From Cristatella mucedo (Eukaryota > Bryozoa > Phylactolaemata > Cristatellidae): a stretch of 64,000 nucleotides of DNA. Below the pieces are notes generated by a model. That model was not told where the DNA came from and made no database searches. It saw nothing but the letters and a program-made list of their open reading frames with translations. A program made the position numbers and the translations under genes. Each line of letters begins with the position of its first letter. The first letter of the stretch is position 1. Shown piece after piece: positions 1 through 63,655 of this stretch. The stretch covers positions 682,001 to 746,000 of the forward strand of contig WPIO01000049.1 of assembly GCA_009760855.2 (NCBI GenBank), given 5' to 3'.

Positions 1-1
1 G

Positions 2-360
2 GTGAGCAATGATGACACATTAGGTAAGGCGGTTGCTTTTAACGACCTCGCTCGCGAGATCGTAGGTTCGAATCCTGCAGTGGGTGATTTTTTATCGCCA
101 CTGCAAGTGTTGGCGATAACCGTAAAGCAGTGGTTCTCAACCTGTGGGTCACGACCCTTTTGGGGGTCGAATGACCCTTTCATAGGGGTTGCCTAAGACC
201 ATCATAAAACACACATTTCCACATTTTGCACGCAATAATTTTATGGTTGAGGGTCGCCACAACATGAAGGACTGTATTAAAGGGTCGCGGCACTAGGAAG
301 GTTGAGAACCACTGCCGTAAAGGCTCTTCTGTTGCTATACAAGAGGCTGTTAAATCAGCT
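2..360 (+). repeat. SINE family B copy, split by a hAT element
   Basis: tRNA-derived SINE. The 5' part has an A-box-like stretch (TAGGTAAGGCGGTTGCT) and a B-box-like GGTTCGAATCC near 65-75, followed by a body with 'GCCACTGCAAG' and an end 'GAGGCTGTTAAATCAGCTAG'. The same consensus recurs at 23.6 kb and 55.0 kb on the plus strand and at 5.9, 19.4, 25.7 and 28.1 kb on the minus strand. This copy is interrupted at 128-314 and resumes at 323. It is a repeat, not a tRNA gene, because the tRNA fold is not maintained. Confidence 0.85.
128..314. mobile_element. Non-autonomous hAT element (MITE) with perfect TIRs and target duplication
   Basis: A 187 bp element with 16 bp perfect terminal inverted repeats CAGTGGTTCTCAACCT. 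It is flanked by a perfect 8 bp direct repeat CCGTAAAG at 120-127 and 315-322, the hallmark of hAT insertion. It sits inside a SINE B copy, so the empty site can be reconstructed directly. It has no coding capacity. The interior (around TTTTATGGTTGAGGGTCGCC and the GGGTCG repeats) resembles, from memory, non-autonomous hAT elements known in vertebrate genomes. That resemblance is recalled, not computed. Confidence 0.92.
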
Positions 361-364
361 AGTC

Positions 365-1040
365 TAATTTTTTCTAGTGTCCTTGATATGAACGGCAGTA
401 GTGAGACTAGGCAGAAGTTATTCCAAGTTCTCCTCATCTAGCATTACTTTCTTAATGAGTGACTTAACAACAGCCTTTTTGAAGGATGCAGGGACAAGAC
501 CTGGGGCTAAGGACATTTTTAGTTAATATGTTCGAACTGGTTTGTTGGCCCAGTGGTTAACGTGCTCGCCCCGACCAAGGCATGGCTGAGGTCACGGACT
601 CGAGCCTCGTGGCATATATGAAGCGCCTGAATAGAGATCAAGTTCGCTTAGGGCACTGCTATACAAATGAATTTTTCACGTTCGCTATGCAGGGCAGCAG
701 TAAAGCTATACATAGCAGAAGTCAAATAATGTAAACAGATCAGAAGGACAAGTAGCTTTCTCAGAGTGAGAGATCATCTTCGAGATGAGGTCATTTGTGG
801 CTTACTGGAAGGTGGAGGTACTGTAAAGAACTATGGGTGAGGAGTCTAGTGGGATGTTATCTTGGAAATGGACATTCTGACCTTATCTATCTTGCAGAAA
901 TAAAAGCTACAGAAACGATCTGCTAGATCACCACAAGGAAAGATCATTAGGTATGCTGCTGACCTAAGAGTGGTTAAGGAGATGGTCAACATAAGCATTT
1001 TTGGATTTTTTGTGGGTGTGATTCCACAATGTTTTTACAG
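365..1040 (-). mobile_element. LINE family 1 fragment, interrupted by a SINE A
   Basis: Matches the LINE 1 copy at 59.7-60.2 kb in order and orientation: shared blocks include 'AACAACAGCCTTTTTGAA', 'GACAAGACCTG' with 'GCTAAGGACAT', and 'CGATCTGCTAGATC'. The two halves are separated by a SINE A (537-683). It covers the region just upstream of the reverse transcriptase catalytic core and is full of stops and indels. Confidence 0.75.
537..683 (+). repeat. SINE family A copy
   Basis: tRNA-like head with an A-box-like TGGCCCAGTGGTTAACGTGC and a B-box-like region around GGACTCGAGCC. It then has the family tail 'GCGCCTGAATAGAGAT' and 'CTGCTATACAAATGAATT'. It is inserted in a LINE 1 relic. Confidence 0.85.
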
Positions 1041-5009: not shown

Positions 5010-14533
<9,524 letters not shown>

Positions 14534-22958: not shown

Positions 22959-25900
22959 CTGAAGCATCATTTTATGAGAAACGTTGGGCGATGAATAAGC
23001 GATCGTACAGCACTATGATTGATTGCATCACTAGCACGATTATACAAACCAAACTATAAAAGCCGGTGCTAACCGAAACTGAAGGCAACTATCAGAAACA
23101 GTCTTAAAACAACAGGAAAGGTCATACAGCACTAGTTATTCTGCAATCTGAATGATAACTTGGTGCACTTTAGCAAATAGCAGAGAACATAATGATCACA
23201 ATAGGAAATGTACAGGAGTTCCAACATAACGCTTTGCTCTCTGAAGCCCATAGGAAGCTACCACGATATGTAAGCCACCCAAAGCGTTTATCACAGCTGA
23301 GACCTCTACAGGAGTGCTGTCGACAAGAGAACTTGAGATTGCCGAGCAATTAGGCAAGTGGTCCAGCCAACTATTTATAGTTTGCACTTTATTAAAGGTG
23401 ATTCCTGGTAATCCATGCACTAACACGGTCAAATTTGTTGCTCAACGAAATACTCTATGCTCAGTATGTGTGCTACATAGAACTATTGACAACCGTCCTT
23501 TGAGCAAGTAATTGCTGCTAGAACTTATTTCAGGTTCTTTTCATTGGTTCTGCTTCATTTGCACACATTTAACTGCAACTAGGCGATTGATTTAGAAAAG
23601 CATTTAGAACTTCGAAAGAAGGGAGTTTGAGCAAACAAGGGCGGTGAGCCGTGATGGCACACTGGGTAAGGTGGTTGCTTTTCATATGACCTAAGTCCCG
23701 AGGTCGTGGGTTAAAATCCTGCGGTTGGTGATCCTTTATCGTCACTGCAAGCGGCGGTGACAGCCGTAAAGGCTCTACTGTCGCTATACAAAAGAGGCTG
23801 TTAAATCAGCTAGTATTTATTTTATTTATTTATCCGTGGCTGAGTCGTTCGTGGGAGAAAGCACGCCACAATCAAACGAATTAGGGAAAGGGAGCACTTA
23901 AAACTGGCTACAAACTATTGCTCGGTGTTCAGCAGCATCTGCTGAGCCAAGTATATACATGCAGTTGCACTAACTATGCTGCACCTCATATCTGCCATTT
24001 TTGCAAAGCATATTTTGATAGTCTAGCTAGAGATCAAAAATAAGTATTCATTGGTGATTGCGAGATAGCTGCCTCAAAGAAAGTATCACGTTTCCAAATG
24101 CACAGGAATTTGCACAGTCGAAGGATAATTTAGTCTCTAATAAATGGTCATACTAATGGCTAACTTCGAAATACCGTATGGAACTGTTGAACAAAAAAGG
24201 AATGATGTAGCAGACAAATCACAGTTAGTGGCCGAGCAAGTTGAAACTCCCAAAAACTCACGATTTGAAAATTCGGCACACACACTTCGACAGTTCGAGC
24301 AGAAGGTGCACAACGAACTTATGTAGGCCCACAGAACCCACGCAGTGTCAGAGTTTGTGCTAGGGAATTTGTCTGCTCAGTTCCTACATAGTCCTCAGCC
24401 AAATGTAGCAGAGCATTAAATGGCGTATGCTGCAGTTGGTCTCTTACACTCTACTCGAGTCGTTGGTCGATAATTACTTTAAGCATTGATTATCAGCTCA
24501 CGGATATTATCAGTATACCACAGTGCCACTAGACGTTTAATTGTGTGAAGGAATTGCTCAAATAAAGAACGGCAAGCAAAAATAGGTACTCCCATGCAAG
24601 CAAAGCCTACAATAACTTTTCATGCCGCTCAACTGTACACTCAACCTTGAAGACTGAATACAGAGCGACGAGGCTCATTGAAACAGCATAAAAAAGGCTG
24701 ATGTTATGTTGACTGCCTTTTGCCATACAGGTCACTCTAATCCAGAAGACAGCTAGACTTGCCCTAGCCTTGACGAAGAAAGGCAAGAAATGTTCTGTGC
24801 TATAACGGTGAAACTACTGGCTCAGCTTGATTGACATTTTCATTGCCATTTTACCATGGTCAGACCAGCTCTAAACTGAAGAGATAATCATACAATTGGC
24901 CAAAGCACCCTCTCTCCTGCAATATATCTGAAAGGAGACGGTCAATACTAAAAAATATGACAAAGCGGCCAGCTGTCATGAAGGATTGTTGAAGGCAACA
25001 CACCACATACACGTGCCGAGAATGATAGCATCCCATACATAGTGTAACAGCATTGTGATGGCACACGATTGCGATTAACCTTGGCAATTATGCACCTATT
25101 GTAACTACCAATAATCCAAAGGTAGCCCGTACATTGGCCAGATAATATTACAAAAGCTCAGTCAGCATCATGACCAGACAAAAGACGGACTAGGCCCAAT
25201 GGCCATCTAGTAACAAATTGCTTAAAATGTGCTTCGAGAGCAGCTGTTTACAGGTCACATCGATTACTGGTGAAAAGTAAGGAGCTCCAAATGAATCGGT
25301 GCCAATTGAGCTGCCACCTGGCTAGCTCGGGACCATGCAATCTGAAGGATGGAACAATGCTTTAACCTGCAACTAAGGAGGCTTCGATCAAAAGCACAGG
25401 GGCCGTAAAGTATATCCATGCATTACAAGAGCAATTATAGGATGGCAGATGTCAATGTCTCGTGCTTGCCAACACACACAAAAAGCCATATACTTCAGCC
25501 ACTTACCAGACCAAGCACCATTAAGTAGCAGCCCCCAAACGCTACACCAAACAGCGGAATGTCCTTATTTACCTGCAAGGAAAGCATGCATTTGGTTTTG
25601 AAAATGCCATCGGCACTATGTAGCAGTGGTTAAAATATTAGCTGATCTACCAGCTTCTTTTTATATAGCAGCAGAAGAGCCTGAAAGGCTATCACCGCCG
25701 CTTTAAGTGGTAATAAAGAATCGCCCACCGCATGATTCAAACCCAAGACCTCGGTCGTGAAGAGCAACTGCTTTACACATCACAAAAACAATATTCGGTA
25801 GAAACATGCAAGTTTTCACATAGCACATCTTATCGGCAACAGATGCTAACAAAGCATGGAAATCTGCTAATGTTATAAAAAGCTGTGAATCAGTGAGCTG

Positions 25901-30431: not shown

Positions 30432-32420
30432 TTATTATTACTTATGAAAAAACTTAGTGTTACTTATTACTCGATCATTCATCTCAACCGCTCCCAGATT
30501 AGCTCCTTACCTGATGAACCCTGTGATGATCTAGCTGATCGATTCTCTCGATTCTTTGTGCAGAAGATAGACAAGATCAGAAAGTCCATCCCTGCGATGG
30601 CAGCATCCCCCTAGAATGGCGACCCTCGATTCCTTGCAGCACCTCAACGTCTACATTCAAGCAGGTCACTAGTGATCTCGTCCTGAAGTTCAAATCCCAA
30701 TCAAAGAAGACAACAAGTCCTTTGGACCACATTCCCACTGTCCTGCTCCTAAGTTGCATTGATCTGCTGCATAACAAGCATAATTAATATGTCATTAGCC
30801 TCAGGAAATGTCCCAGCACCTTTCAAAAAAGCTGTAGTCAGGCCATGTCTCAAGAAAGTGACACTAGACCATGAGAACTTCAGCAACTACCGCCCAGTCT
30901 CCCTTCTACCATTCCTATCAAAGACAGAAGAACGAGTCGTGGCAGACCAGCTGAACTCATATATTGATACTTCAAACCTTGCTAATAAGTTCCAGTCTGA
31001 CTTTAGAGCCATTCATTCCACCATAGTCAGCATGGTTTCGGGTGTACAACGACCTACTTAGACATGCAGACATGGGTAGAGTATCTCTGCTTATTTTGCT
31101 CGATCTTTTGGCAGCTTTTGATACTATCGATCCCCAAGTCCTTCTTGAGCGCCTCTCATCTCGCATGGACATCACTGGCACTATTTATTATTTTTGATAT
31201 CAGTTTCTCAGTGGGAGACTCCGGAGTATTGATGTGAAGGGACAAAGATCATGCAAGGCACCTGTGAAATGTGGGGTACCTCAGGGCTCCGTGCTAGGTC
31301 CGGTTCTTTTCACGGTTTATACTCTCCCTCTTGCCGATGTGATTGCCAAGCACAATCTAGGCTTTCACTTCTATGGGCATGACACTCAGTTGTACCTTTG
31401 CTTTGATCCCTCCCAGCCTTCGAGCACCTCGCATTACGTCCGTTGCTGCATGCAATGATGCCATCCACATATGGATGGCAGCAAATTCTCTTCAATTGAA
31501 TGATGATAAAACTAACTTACTAGTTATGGGCAAACCGAGTGTGATTCAAAAATTAGAAAGGCTGACGCTCAAAATCGGCTCTGCCAGCATATTTCCTGTT
31601 GAATTTGCACTAAATCTAGGTGTCATGTTCCAAAGTGACTTCTCGTTAGACGACCACATCAGCTCCACAATCAATCAAGTCTGCCTACTTTCAGCTACAT
31701 AACATTGCTAAAATTCGGGCTTGTTTAGATAAGGATACCACACCTAACTTGGTCCACGTATTTGTGACATCCCGTCTTGACTTCTGTAACTCACTGCTTC
31801 CTGACCTACCGGCATGTGCAATCAGGCGATTACAGCTGGTGCAAAACTCGGCAGCAAGGCTTGTCTGTCGTGAGCGTCGCAGTTGCCACATCACACCACA
31901 TCTCGCCGACCTGCACTGGCTACCAGTAGGTCCCTTCATTCTTTGCCTCCAGCCTATCTCTCAGATCTACTCCCCCCACCAGGCCACGCATAGTATCACC
32001 AGCTTTTCGGAATCTAACTGTTTACCAATACCTTGTACAAACCTCAAATCCTTTGGAGAACGTGCATTTAGTTTGTATGCTCCCAAAGCCTGGAACTCAC
32101 TCCCAACTTTCGTCACGACATTCCCTGACTAGAACACATTAAAAAAGAACTTAAAAACGCACCTATTTAGGACAGCATTTAGTGGGTCCCTGTGATTCGT
32201 CCTTATATGTGCTTATGCATGCTGACACTGTGCATGCTGCCACTAACCACACTTGCATGCTGACCCTGTGCATGTCACCCCCTAACCATGTTATTTATGT
32301 TGTTTATCAAGAATAATACCACTCACCATTCGATCGTGTTTCCTTTGCAGGAAATGTAAAGGTCCTAGAAAGAGATTGAGTTCTCTGAGGGTGCTTTATC
32401 AAGTGTATGTATTATTATTA
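30432..32420 (+). mobile_element. LINE family 1, longest plus-strand copy
   Basis: Encodes a decayed L2/CR1-type reverse transcriptase. Blocks in order: [13 protein letters not shown] near 30,885; DLLAAFDTIDPQVLLERLSS near 31,110; [14 protein letters not shown] near 31,270; the catalytic region FHFYGHDTQLYLCFDP near 31,370, where the usual Y-A-D-D has become Y-G-H-D; LGVMFQSDFSLDDHI near 31,620; and SFGERAFSLYAPKAWNSLPT near 32,055. Then the family 3' region and tail with (ATT)n. Frameshifts and stops show it is inactive. 5'-truncated; the endonuclease domain is absent. Confidence 0.9.
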
Positions 32421-43676: not shown

Positions 43677-46600
43677 CTGTGCACAGGCCAATTGAAAAAT
43701 AACGAATAAACTGGCATCCATCTTGGTCGACAACTCGCAAGATACAAGCACTGAATGGCTGTTATGCTGACAAGTTTTCTGCAACGGCGCTATCATTGGC
43801 CAACCCTGCACAGCAGCAAAGACGCGAGAACAGTCGAGCGCCAAAGAAACTACAAAACGACAGATGGCGGGAAAGCAAATGCCAGAATCGGCATTAGAAA
43901 ATTAAAACATGAGTCTGCATGTTAGAAAAGAAAGTGTGTTTGCAAGGCGAGCCTCGATGCTTCAGCCAGCAGTAGAAAGCACACAGCATCAGAAGCAGCA
44001 GTCTACAGCAGCCATTGTGAAGCAGAACCGGGCGAAAACTGCACGGTGCTATCGGACGACGTTGACTAAAAAGGAAACAATCCGATGGAGATGATATTGG
44101 GCTGAGTGGTAGCTGCTCATCAACGGTTGCCGTTATGCTTGAGCACCGACGACGTTTGCGCCATGTTTGTGCTACACCAAGAGCATCTTAGATACGGATG
44201 ACAGTAGACACGGATGTGACAAGATCCTATGACATGCTAATGCTACCCTGTGGCTGCGACTATAGCCAAATCAACGCACCGGCTAAGAATGGATATAATG
44301 TCTCGTGGACAGGCGGCTTAGACAGCGAGCAAGGCGGCTAAGTGGTCAAATGCAAGGTGATCGAATGTGCCATAACCAAACGGCAGCAGAATTTATGAGA
44401 AAAGATGGTGTTTGCAAGAATGCATTAGGTAGAACAACTTTGACTGTCATTACAAAGGCACCTTCAGTTTTATAAAAGCATTATCACTGATAGTCACATA
44501 GGCGTGAAACGCCATTTACTAACTGGCTCGTGGGAGAAGCGAATGGCAGTATTACTGCATGACGGAATGAGAGCCAGAGAGCACACAGGCAGAATGAGTG
44601 GCACGTAAAAAAGCAAAGAGGGCCGAGCAGTATCACTTTAAGATAAAAAAAAATGTGGAGTCAAATCCCAGCGACACGAGGTTACAGCAAAGGCTATAAT
44701 CAGTGAGCACAAACAGTGACAGATTGCATCCACGTCGGCGGTATAGAGCAGGATGCAGGGTCGGATACATTGGTGGGAGTGAGAGGCCGACCTGGATTGC
44801 ATCCGACCGGTGGGTGCATCGAGAGAGGGCCATCTATGTGTTTTCCTATGAGGACACACCCCAGCAGTGCGGTAGCATGTTCTACAAGTACGGATGAAGA
44901 CGGCTAAATGAAAACTTGAAACTTAGCAAATAAGTTCCAGTCCGGTTTTAAAGCTAATCAATCACCCCACCGAGTCAGCATTGCTGCGGCTGTACAACGG
45001 CCCTGCTCAGGAATGCAGATATAGAGAAGAGTCTCGCTGCTAGCTTTGCTAGGTCTCTTGGAAGCATTCCTACGATTGATCACCAAGTTCTTTTCGAGCA
45101 CATCTCGTCTTGCCTGGGCACCACTGGCACTGCACTGTAATTATCCTATCTCAGTGAGAATTATCCGCGGGATTCTCTAAAATAAGGGTACCCCAGGGCT
45201 CTGTGCTTGGTCTACTTCTTTTCACAATTTACATTCTCCCTCTTGCTGAAGTAATCGCCTTACGCAATCTAGTCTTTCATTTCTATGCAGATGACACAGA
45301 GCGGTACATGTGCTTTGATCCCTCACTGCCTCCCAGTAGGTCAAATTCTTTCGCCTCCTATGCTGAATGTACTGCTGTCGTTTGCATTTGGATGGCAACA
45401 AACTTTCGACAATTGAATGACAGTAACACGAACTTACCAGTTATGGGTTAACCAAGAGATACCCAGAAATTGGAAAACTCAATGCTCCAAATGGACTAGG
45501 CCGCCGGCATATCTCCTGTAACATCTGCATGAAATCTTGGTGTCCTGCTCCTTTCATTAAGCGACCACACCAGCTCCATAGTCAATTCTGCCTACTTTCA
45601 GCTCTGTAAAATTGCAAAACTTGCGGCTTAGACGAGGATATCACATCTACGCTGGTCCATGCATTTGTGACATCCCACCTCACCTTTTGTAGTGCAATAA
45701 TTCATTACCTAGTTATCTGGCCTGTGCAATTAAGTGCTCTCAGTCGGTGCAAAACTCAGCAGCTCAGCTGGTCTGTCGCGAACGTCACAGTTGCCACACT
45801 ACTAGCCACTTCTTACCAACCTGCACTGGCTCCTCTTCAAGTAGCTTATCGACTTTCAGGTTTCGTCACTCACGTATCGATCCCTTCATTCTCTTGCTCC
45901 AGCCTACCTGAATTATTTCCTAATCAGGCCAGGCAGTGTACCATGTGCTCTTCTGACTGCCCTCTTCTGACTTCTGCATCTACACTGACAAACGCTCGGA
46001 GTCGAGACAACTGAGAAGTTGGGGGTACTTCGCCTCTTTCTACTGGTATGGGGGACCAATGACTGACGAACAAAATCAGAGTTTTGCATCTGGGTTAGAT
46101 GAATTAGCCAGGTGGTTCACTTCTTGGCCGTAGATCAGCCTTCTGAGGCAGCCAACCCATCATGAACAGACACCGCATACTACCTTCATAGACGAGTTGT
46201 GTGGGAAGACCAATCTGTGGGACAACAAGACTTCCGCTTCCTCCTTGCACTGCCGTGCACTACTGCAACCGCAGCAGCGACTAGCGGTTACTTTTGGGTA
46301 GGCTGCAGCAGATACATGTCTGCAGACAGTTACTGCTTCATTTTCATTTGCCACCAAACAAGAAAATGTACGACCTCCACTATCCATGTTGACATGCTTC
46401 CCTTAAAGAATATTTCAAGTGCCAACACAAATTTCTTAATGATATTATTACTTTTTTCTATATGGCAGCCGCAATTCTATCCGCATGAGCTATTAGACCT
46501 TAGACAAGAATCTACTTGCAGACGTACACAGTACATGCCTGCTAGACTCGTCGGGCACGAAACCACACTAAAAAATAGTGCCTATTTGGTGCTTACACAT

Positions 46601-52880: not shown

Positions 52881-55800
52881 CCTCTCCTCCTTTCTCTCTC
52901 AACTCCCTTGTATTGTGTATTGCTGACATTTGCACTTGGATGACAACAAACTTTCTCACATTGATTAACGATAACACTAACTTGTTACTTATATGCAAAC
53001 CAAGTGTTACTCAGAAATTGGAAAAGCTAAACCTCAACATGGACTAGGCTAACATATCTCCTGTAGCATCTGCATGCAATCTAGGTGTCCTGTTTCAAAG
53101 TCACCTTTCACAAGACAACCGTGTATGCTCCAACGTTAAGCCGACTTTCAACTATGCTGCATTGCAAACATTTGGGATTGCTTAACTTGAGATACCACAT
53201 CGAAGTTGGTTCATTTATTTGTGACATCACGCCTCGACTTCTGCAACTCACTACTGGATGGTCAACTAGCCTGTGCAGCATGGTGCTTGCAGCTGGTGCA
53301 GTACTCTATAGCTAGCCTTGTCGGTCACGAACGTGGTAATCGGCACACTGCACCACTTTTCACCCGAACTGCACTAGCTTCCCACGAAGCAGCCCATCAA
53401 ATTCAAGGTTTTGTCACTCACTTTCAGATTCTTCATTCTCTGGCTCTAGCTGACCTATCAAGACTACTTCCCAATCAGGCTAAGCAGCGTACCAGCTGCT
53501 CTACTGACCCAAGTCATTTAGCTTTGCCTTTAATTAACTTCAAAAACTTTTGGATATCGTGCTGTTAGTGCGTACACTCCCAAAGCCTGGGATGCACTCC
53601 CAACTGACGTTATAATATTACCTGACTTGGGGATATTTAAAAAGAAGCTGAAAACCGAATTAGTTCCTCACAGCTTAGCTGGCTTCGCGTGAATTGTCCT
53701 TTGTGTGCCTGTGTGTACTGACACTGTGCTGCATGTTAGCTTTCACTCAACAATAGATATGCTTCCGTGAAAGTATATGTAACATGCCTAAAAAGAGACT
53801 TAGTTCTCTCAGTGCACAAAACAAATGACTAGTTATTACTTTGCATTAAATTGTGCAGCTGTGTTGCATGGTAAGAGAGTAGAGACAACAAAAGCTCTGA
53901 TCGAGGAAACTGCTGAACACGTAGCCTGATACTGGGGTAATGGGTTCTTCTTTTGCACGGGAGATTGGTTAGAATAGGGGCTGAGTGTGAAGAACCTTCT
54001 AGCTATTCAAGGAAGGCATAGAGGTAACAACATGACTCAATGGGACCGTGTGCATGTTTAAACAAGTGGGTGCACACACGCCTAAGCCCGTGTGTTTGCG
54101 CGAGTTTGTCTGCTTGTGGGCTTGTGTGTGTACATGCATGCATGCATGTTTGTATCTGCATCCCCGAATGAAGCGTGAGTGCGCGCCTGCACAAGTGGAT
54201 ACACTAGAGTTCGTGCCATGGACATACAAGTGTCCGTGTGAGCTCGTGTAAATGCGAGCACATATGGATGCACGTGCGAAGTGTGAATGAGCCTCTTTGT
54301 ATCCATGCATATGTGCACGTAGGGATGCATACAAGTGGACAGTATCAGATCAGGAGAAGGCTTAGCCTGATTAAGCCAAATTGCACTGATTGCTCTCCTC
54401 ATTGTCCATCGCCAGGCAGCAGGTGGAATTCGCACTGACTCGCCTGCTTGTTACTGCCTTTTGCTGCTCACTGTTTGCTTTCACTGCTCATTCTTGCAGT
54501 ACTGCTTCACCACACGGCAAAGAGCCCATAAGGGCCACCGAGCTTGACGGTGGCACGAACTCACCATCTGATACTGTCATCTTAAGGATGTCATCATAAG
54601 CCCAGGGATATCACAGACAGTGGAGCTAACGACCAATCACAAAAAATCGAGTTCCTGGCTATCAACAACGCTCGCAGTATTAGCTTAAGGAGACCAGCAG
54701 GTTCTTGTATGTACACGAGACTGCAAGCTTGAACGTGGCTAGCAGCTTGGAAAGCTATGCAACCACGTAGGTGTACACAGATCAGCCGATAAAACCGAGC
54801 ACGAAATATGTATGCAATCGACTTCTGGAAGGCTTCTATGAAAGAACTTACTTAGTTGCATGTTTGCACAGGTGCAGTAGCAGCTCCTGCACTAAAGTCC
54901 TTTGCCGCAAACATAGCACACGAACAACAAGTGCTAGTCCTTACAGACACGTGACAACGAGTGGCACACTAGGTAAGGCGGTTGCTTTCACGCCCTCGGT
55001 CCCGAGGTAGTGGGTTCGATTCCTGCGGTGGGCGATTCTTTATCGCCACTGCAAGCGGTGGTGATAGCCATAAAGGCTCTTCCGTCGCTATACAAAAAGA
55101 GGCTGTTTAATCAGCTAGGATTTATTTATATGGACGTGAGACACATGGACCTGGTGCCTTGAAGTACGGCTATAAAGAGTCGTAGTTGCTACACCAATAC
55201 AAGCAGGTAAGCATGCGGCAGCAGAGGAGCATGGAAGCAATCGAGAGCACCATACCTTAATATTAAAAGTCCATTTCGTTAACGTAGAGAATTATATTAC
55301 ATAGCCACAGGGTGGCACGTGCGTACAGTGCCAGCCATTGCGTACAACTCACTTCGAAGCCCAAATTGCAACTGACTGGTAATCACTATAGATGCCCAGC
55401 CCATTCGGTCTAAGCCACAGATTCGGACATATCTGGTTTCCAATGCTCCAGGAACCGATAACAATAGCACTATATATATCTAGTGATCGGGCCTTCCGAG
55501 TGTATGCACCGAAAGTCTGGGACTTGCTCCAAGCTTCAGTCACCACCTGCATTGAGTTCCCACCGTTTAAGTCTCGGCAAAAGATGCACCTGTTCCACTC
55601 GGCTTCCTCTGCCACGAGAGCTTGCCTGATCACTTTTGCATTTTTTGCATGCTTACGTGTGAATGATTCAGTTCACTATACTATCTAGGGGTCCTACTAA
55701 CCTGGGCTCCTATTAACATACAGCCCCGAGTATCTTCTTGGGTGCTTTTGCATTCACAGCTATGCATGATATTTGTGGGCCTTTGCATGCTTGCCCAAGT

Positions 55801-63515: not shown

Positions 63516-63655
63516 GAAAAAAAATTCATTTGTATAGCGCCCCAAGAGAACTTAATCTCTATTCAGGCGCTTCACATATGCCTCAGGGCTCGAGCCCACG
63601 ACCTCAGCTATGCCTTGGTCGGGGAGAGCACCTTAACCACTGGACCAAACCATCC
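63516..63655 (-). repeat. SINE family A copy (minus, well preserved)
   Basis: TTCATTTGTATAGCGCCCCA, GAACTTAATCTCTATTCAGG, CAGGGCTCGAGCCCACGACC and CTTAACCACTGGACCAAACC. It lies directly next to a LINE 1 tail in the same orientation. Confidence 0.93.

Follow-up and report, generated by a model that had tools for sequence, protein, structure and literature searches.

The 64-kb stretch of DNA analysed here, referred to as the window, opens on a tRNA-type SINE that is split by a 187-bp element with the ends of a hAT transposon. The features at the locus are listed below.

1..127, + strand: SINE A (tRNA-type), 5' part, ending with the first TSD copy; it may start before the window (placed by genome and window copies)
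120..127, no strand: TSD, left copy CCGTAAAG, 8 bp, present once in two element-free SINE copies
128..314, + strand: hAT MITE, Buster-type, SPIN/URR1-like, non-autonomous, 187 bp (placed by its ends, the family search and rodent alignments)
128..143, + strand: 5' TIR CAGTGGTTCTCAACCT; the consensus of 40 copies reads CAGCGGTTCTCAACCT
299..314, - strand: 3' TIR, inverted repeat of the 5' end
315..322, no strand: TSD, right copy CCGTAAAG, 8 bp
323..363, + strand: SINE A, 3' remainder after the insertion, end approximate (placed by aligning the joined flanks to L135, L136 and copies in the window)

The first-pass annotation had described a 187-bp element with perfect 16-bp TIRs and a perfect 8-bp TSD at this place, and we found it exactly there: the TIRs match in inverted orientation at 16 of 16 positions and the TSD copies at 8 of 8. 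An 8-bp TSD is characteristic of the hAT superfamily, and the 16-bp length of the TIRs falls within the 10-25 bp given for this superfamily in an excerpt of PMC3942097. The perfect TIR word occurs twice in the 64-kb window, both times as an end of the MITE. One further site (6635-6650) lies within three mismatches of it; shuffled windows contained on average 0.44 sites within this distance, and three or more in 1 of 100 shuffles. An Rfam scan of the window gave no match at the gathering cut-off.

SINE A is a repeat of this genome. A genome-wide search returned 2549 first-look candidates, and 40 of these 2549, the window copy among them, were scored; five more copies lie inside the window. Its tRNA-like B box, recognized by eye, reads GGTTCGAATCC. 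We removed the MITE and one TSD copy by script and aligned the joined flanks to other SINE copies. The alignments ran unbroken through copies on two other contigs, with 148/171 and 147/170 identities, and both of these copies carry CCGTAAAG once. They also ran unbroken through the window copies at 54951-55118 and 23643-23814. Since these SINE copies are uninterrupted across the insertion point, the SINE is the older of the two and the MITE landed inside it. The flanking repeat that had been proposed is thus real and resident in a non-vertebrate genome (see below), with element-free copies. A second tRNA-like repeat, SINE B, occupies window positions 521-700 and has six further matches in the window, for example at 63520-63648. 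Elsewhere in the window, open frames at 31650-32132, 45610-46014 and 53191-53568 resemble, judged by eye, the 3' portion of a reverse transcriptase from a CR1/L2-type LINE; Pfam gave no match for the frames at 31650 and 53191.

We searched for the MITE family in the same genome (572 Mb, 688 contigs) and obtained 2225 first-look candidates, of which the best 40, spread over 35 contigs, were scored. A 19-mer starting at base 5 of the consensus was found genome-wide, with at most one mismatch, at 976 sites, and its reversed control at none. The family thus numbers hundreds of copies at the least and has roughly a thousand sites. The 187-bp consensus built from the best 40 of the 2225 candidates starts with CAGCGGTTCTCAACCTGTGGGTCGCGACCCC and ends with GGTTGAGAACCACTG, so that its TIRs are unequal at position 4; perfect 16-bp TIRs occur in 6 of the 40 scored copies. 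The TSDs match at 8/8 positions in 13 of these copies, at 7/8 in 11 and at 6/8 or fewer in 16, some of which, judged by eye, are without one end. TA stands at TSD positions 4-5 in all 13 perfect duplications. Among the 24 TSDs with at least 7/8 matches it is present in the left flank of 20 and in either flank of all 24, and TA makes up 5.9% of the dinucleotides of the window. Elements of the Buster group are reported, by Arensburger in 2011, to prefer targets of the form nnnTAnnn. The target sites of the family are of this form and fit the Buster group of hAT. Together, the ends, target sites and copy number bear out the identification as a hAT MITE.

The perfect ends had been taken as a sign of a recent insertion. 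We found that the window copy differs from the consensus at 14 of 187 bases (7.5%), by 13 transitions and one transversion. Six of the 14 differences fall at CpGs, including the C-to-T change at TIR position 4 that made the TIR perfect. The best 40 of the 2225 copies are on average 5.6% from the consensus, these having been chosen by their likeness to the window copy. A less biased sample was taken from 20 places, about every fifth of some 100 listed 19-mer sites, on low-numbered contigs and with an intact 19-mer; two of them (L010 and L054) had been collected earlier and 18 were new. L124, a longer form, was excluded from the mean, and L122, L127, L133 and L134 align over part of the element only. 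The 17 sampled copies are on average 8.3% from the consensus, or 7.3% outside CpG. The window copy is an ordinary old member of its family, and the reading as a young insertion is ruled out by its 7.5% divergence, beside a sample mean of 8.3%, and by the CpG origin of its perfect TIR.

Longer relatives of the MITE were also found. The locus L124 (its extension being L137) carries a non-autonomous form that is longer, about 300 bp by eye, and L139 is another long copy, of about 330 bp by eye. The interior of the longer form gave 93 first-look candidates, of which 40 were scored, some of them matching just the final two-thirds of the query. As a transposase query we used a self-composed 70-residue Buster-like motif. 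It had 29 matches in the genome, the best pieces being 56-63% identical to this query (E 1.1e-14 to 1.2e-16). Six of the weaker matches coincide with PF05699 matches, and this overlap suggests that the motif acts like a hAT C-terminal domain. Two of the three best matches, L140 and L141, are Buster-like pieces directly upstream of a MITE 3' end, of which L140 retains 77 bp (90% identical to the consensus) and L141 81 bp (89%); the best match, L142, showed no MITE part in the 1 kb examined. The transposase-like frames, read unmended, are broken, and Pfam on six of the pieces gave no hAT domain and two unrelated matches below cut-off. DNA of a transposase piece was found at 13 places and covers the coding part at five, the query's own included; the four other copies are 84-87% identical to the query. 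The pieces may derive from a putative autonomous relative of the MITE, Buster-like by the composed motif.

Two other groups of loci were considered as the autonomous partner and rejected. MITE ends were found, with a strict pattern, at 0 of 30 loci of a young PF05699 hAT (L057-L086) and, with up to two mismatches, at 0 of 30 DUF4371 loci (L087-L116); both tests reached some 1.5 kb to either side of the domain and could have missed ends lying further out. The PF05699 family is a separate and very young hAT. It has matches of similar score at about 60 places, in many cases within long open frames, and the 29 other loci of L057-L086 are 98.9-99.9% identical to L062 over the main aligned stretch.

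The TIR and interior of the MITE seem to look like SPIN, and the whole consensus seems to resemble SPIN and the rodent element URR1, a likeness that serves as a lead. The SPIN (SPACE INVADERS) hAT elements and their MITEs were reportedly described by Pace in 2008 and by Gilbert in 2010. For the vertebrate comparison we relied on mouse and rat fragments printed in open-access papers and located there by words of the element; all the vertebrate matches from this search of the open-access literature come from mouse or rat. One of them, found by the TIR word alone, is from the mouse FDH locus, whose gene is presumably Adh5. In an excerpt of PMC8376875 this text agrees with consensus positions 119-187 at 59 of 69 bases (86%), and outside the TIR at 44 of 53, against a maximum of 24 among 2000 shuffles compared in that register. 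The same copy keeps 15 of the 16 bases of the consensus 3' TIR, those 15 being the search word.

The mouse Ate1 screening primers, printed identically in excerpts of PMC2767504 and PMC2837401, gave two matches that stand in the same order as in the consensus. Primer 1, whose first base lies outside the element, agrees with positions 1-19 at 18 of 19 bases, and primer R2, which was not a search word, with positions 56-75 at 18 of 20. A rat primer (NONRATT000845; excerpt of PMC5739704) agrees with positions 60-81 at 20 of 22 bases, 16 of which are the search word. The five mismatches of the Ate1 and rat primers are all at CpGs of the consensus. Exact search words led to the first Ate1 primer and to most of the rat primer, which inflates their identity; furthermore, all the rodent stretches compared sit in terminal regions of the element. 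A mouse Drc1 primer shares 17 consecutive bases with the longer form, a weak match (excerpt of PMC8522639). In addition, rodent-element words that had been chosen before the longer form was read are present in the long copies, cagttatgaagtagcaa in L137 and L139 and gtagcaacgaaaataat in L139. In the excerpts, then, the rodent URR1/SPIN-like copies (mouse Ate1, FDH and Drc1, rat NONRATT000845) share ends and interior words with the MITE and differ from its consensus at CpGs and elsewhere. The first-pass annotation had noted a likeness of TIR and interior to vertebrate elements and had held that low identity outside the TIRs would speak against it. The interior matches rodent DNA too, within the printed fragments (FDH 44/53, Ate1 R2 18/20, rat 20/22), and since the mouse FDH copy matches outside the TIR, this objection falls away for mouse.

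The nature of the host was read from its mitochondrial contig, on which COX1 was identified by its Pfam family and the remaining genes were assigned by eye from their open frames. There are 7 AGA and 4 AGG codons in the COX1 frame, several at sites where Ser is usual. Because of these 11 codons the vertebrate code does not fit. ND1-ND6-CYTB-ND4L-ND4-ND5 lie on a single strand, in an order that is usual in lophotrochozoans such as molluscs and nemerteans, but not in arthropods. We conclude that the host is a non-vertebrate, probably a lophotrochozoan. A search of the host genome for the molluscan haemocyanin domain PF14830 gave no match, and the controls were equally silent, so that absence is not shown. 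The 21-kb mitochondrial contig (G000:C688; L022, L023, L024) also carries a 2.1-kb perfect direct and a 1.8-kb perfect inverted repeat, and its ND2, COX2 (assigned by eye) and large rRNA are on the other strand from the remaining genes that were recognized; these repeats and the strand switch reflect either rearrangement of the genome or an artefact of assembly.

The same data bear on contamination, which the first-pass annotation had wanted checked. A vertebrate origin of the scaffold or of the entire assembly, or contamination of either by vertebrate DNA, might be suspected since the element family is best known from vertebrates. However, the best 40 of 2225 candidate places are on 35 contigs, the 5' word stands at 976 sites, SINE A is repeated throughout the genome, with five further copies in the window, and COX1 has its 11 AGA/AGG codons, several at sites where Ser is usual. 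We therefore reject this explanation as extremely improbable, and regard the MITE and SINE A as residents of a non-vertebrate genome. With longer patterns, we found no independent MITE copies in viral_contigs or in the prokaryote genome_contigs, and BLAST found none in phages or plasmids. The exact 16-mer TIR word is present in seven viral contigs (L001-L007), probably by chance according to a rough estimate.

A second alternative is that the family descends from an old endogenous Buster-type hAT, inherited vertically, and that its likeness to vertebrate elements reflects functional constraint on the ends bound by the transposase. Other hAT lineages are present in the same genome, every rodent stretch in the comparison is terminal, and Buster elements conserve about 106 bp of their terminal regions (excerpt of PMC4298943), all of which is in keeping with such descent. 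However, Buster families differ clearly in their TIRs, CAGGGCTTCTTAAAC and CAGGGGTGGCCAACCT in the same excerpt, whereas the mouse FDH copy keeps 15 of 16 3'-TIR bases (those of the search word) and, beyond the TIR, 44 of 53, and the sampled copies of the family are on average just 8.3% from their consensus. We consider vertical descent unlikely. Horizontal transfer of a SPIN/URR1-type hAT, for which the first-pass annotation had put the element forward as a candidate, is the best reading and is probable.

OC1 (OposCharlie1) is a hAT as well, presumably of another family than the MITE here. It has a 192-bp non-autonomous form that spread horizontally among vertebrates and invertebrates, and is likened to ours by description (excerpt of PMC3621081). 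SPIN, as excerpted, is like the present MITE a non-autonomous hAT found in invertebrate as well as vertebrate hosts, and in Rhodnius SPIN, OC1, hAT and ET elements came from tetrapods (excerpt of PMC11614815). The SPIN-like hAT of Biomphalaria glabrata, likened by description, is as here an invertebrate family, of about 1,000 copies, and had no intact transposases in that assembly (excerpt of PMC5440852); this species is a mollusc, whereas in the present host the molluscan haemocyanin search gave no match, with silent controls. According to the excerpt of PMC4298943, Buster elements are common to insects and a planarian, or to insects and a bat. Buster1 has subterminal repeats TGGGTCGCG, and the MITE consensus carries TGGGTCGCG at positions 18-26 together with related GGGTCGC words; the TIRs of Buster1 and Buster2, their ends alone being compared, differ from those of the MITE (PMC4298943, same excerpt). 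The Rhodnius, Biomphalaria and Buster cases show that cross-phylum transfer of such elements is already in print. SPIN-type elements in invertebrates are likewise known (Rhodnius, Biomphalaria), and the MITE family described here adds a member to them.

Taken together, we consider it very likely that window positions 128-314 hold an inactive Buster-group hAT MITE of the SPIN/URR1 kind, from a family that was moved by a related transposase, acquired horizontally, and then decayed. The founder element would have entered the invertebrate lineage through horizontal transfer, the transposase of a related autonomous element would have moved the MITE by cut-and-paste, and the family would then have been silenced and have decayed to about 8% divergence. 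The chances are about even that a SPIN-type hAT invaded a lophotrochozoan lineage outside the published SPIN hosts and left behind some 1,000 MITEs, a longer form and a few dying transposase copies. If so, the entry and the death of the invader would be datable in one genome, the decayed transposase copies offering a way to date the invasion. Furthermore, if the host is a lophotrochozoan beyond the blood-feeding bug and the schistosome-carrying snail already linked to SPIN, such transposons would travel between vertebrates and invertebrates by wider routes than a parasite-host picture allows.
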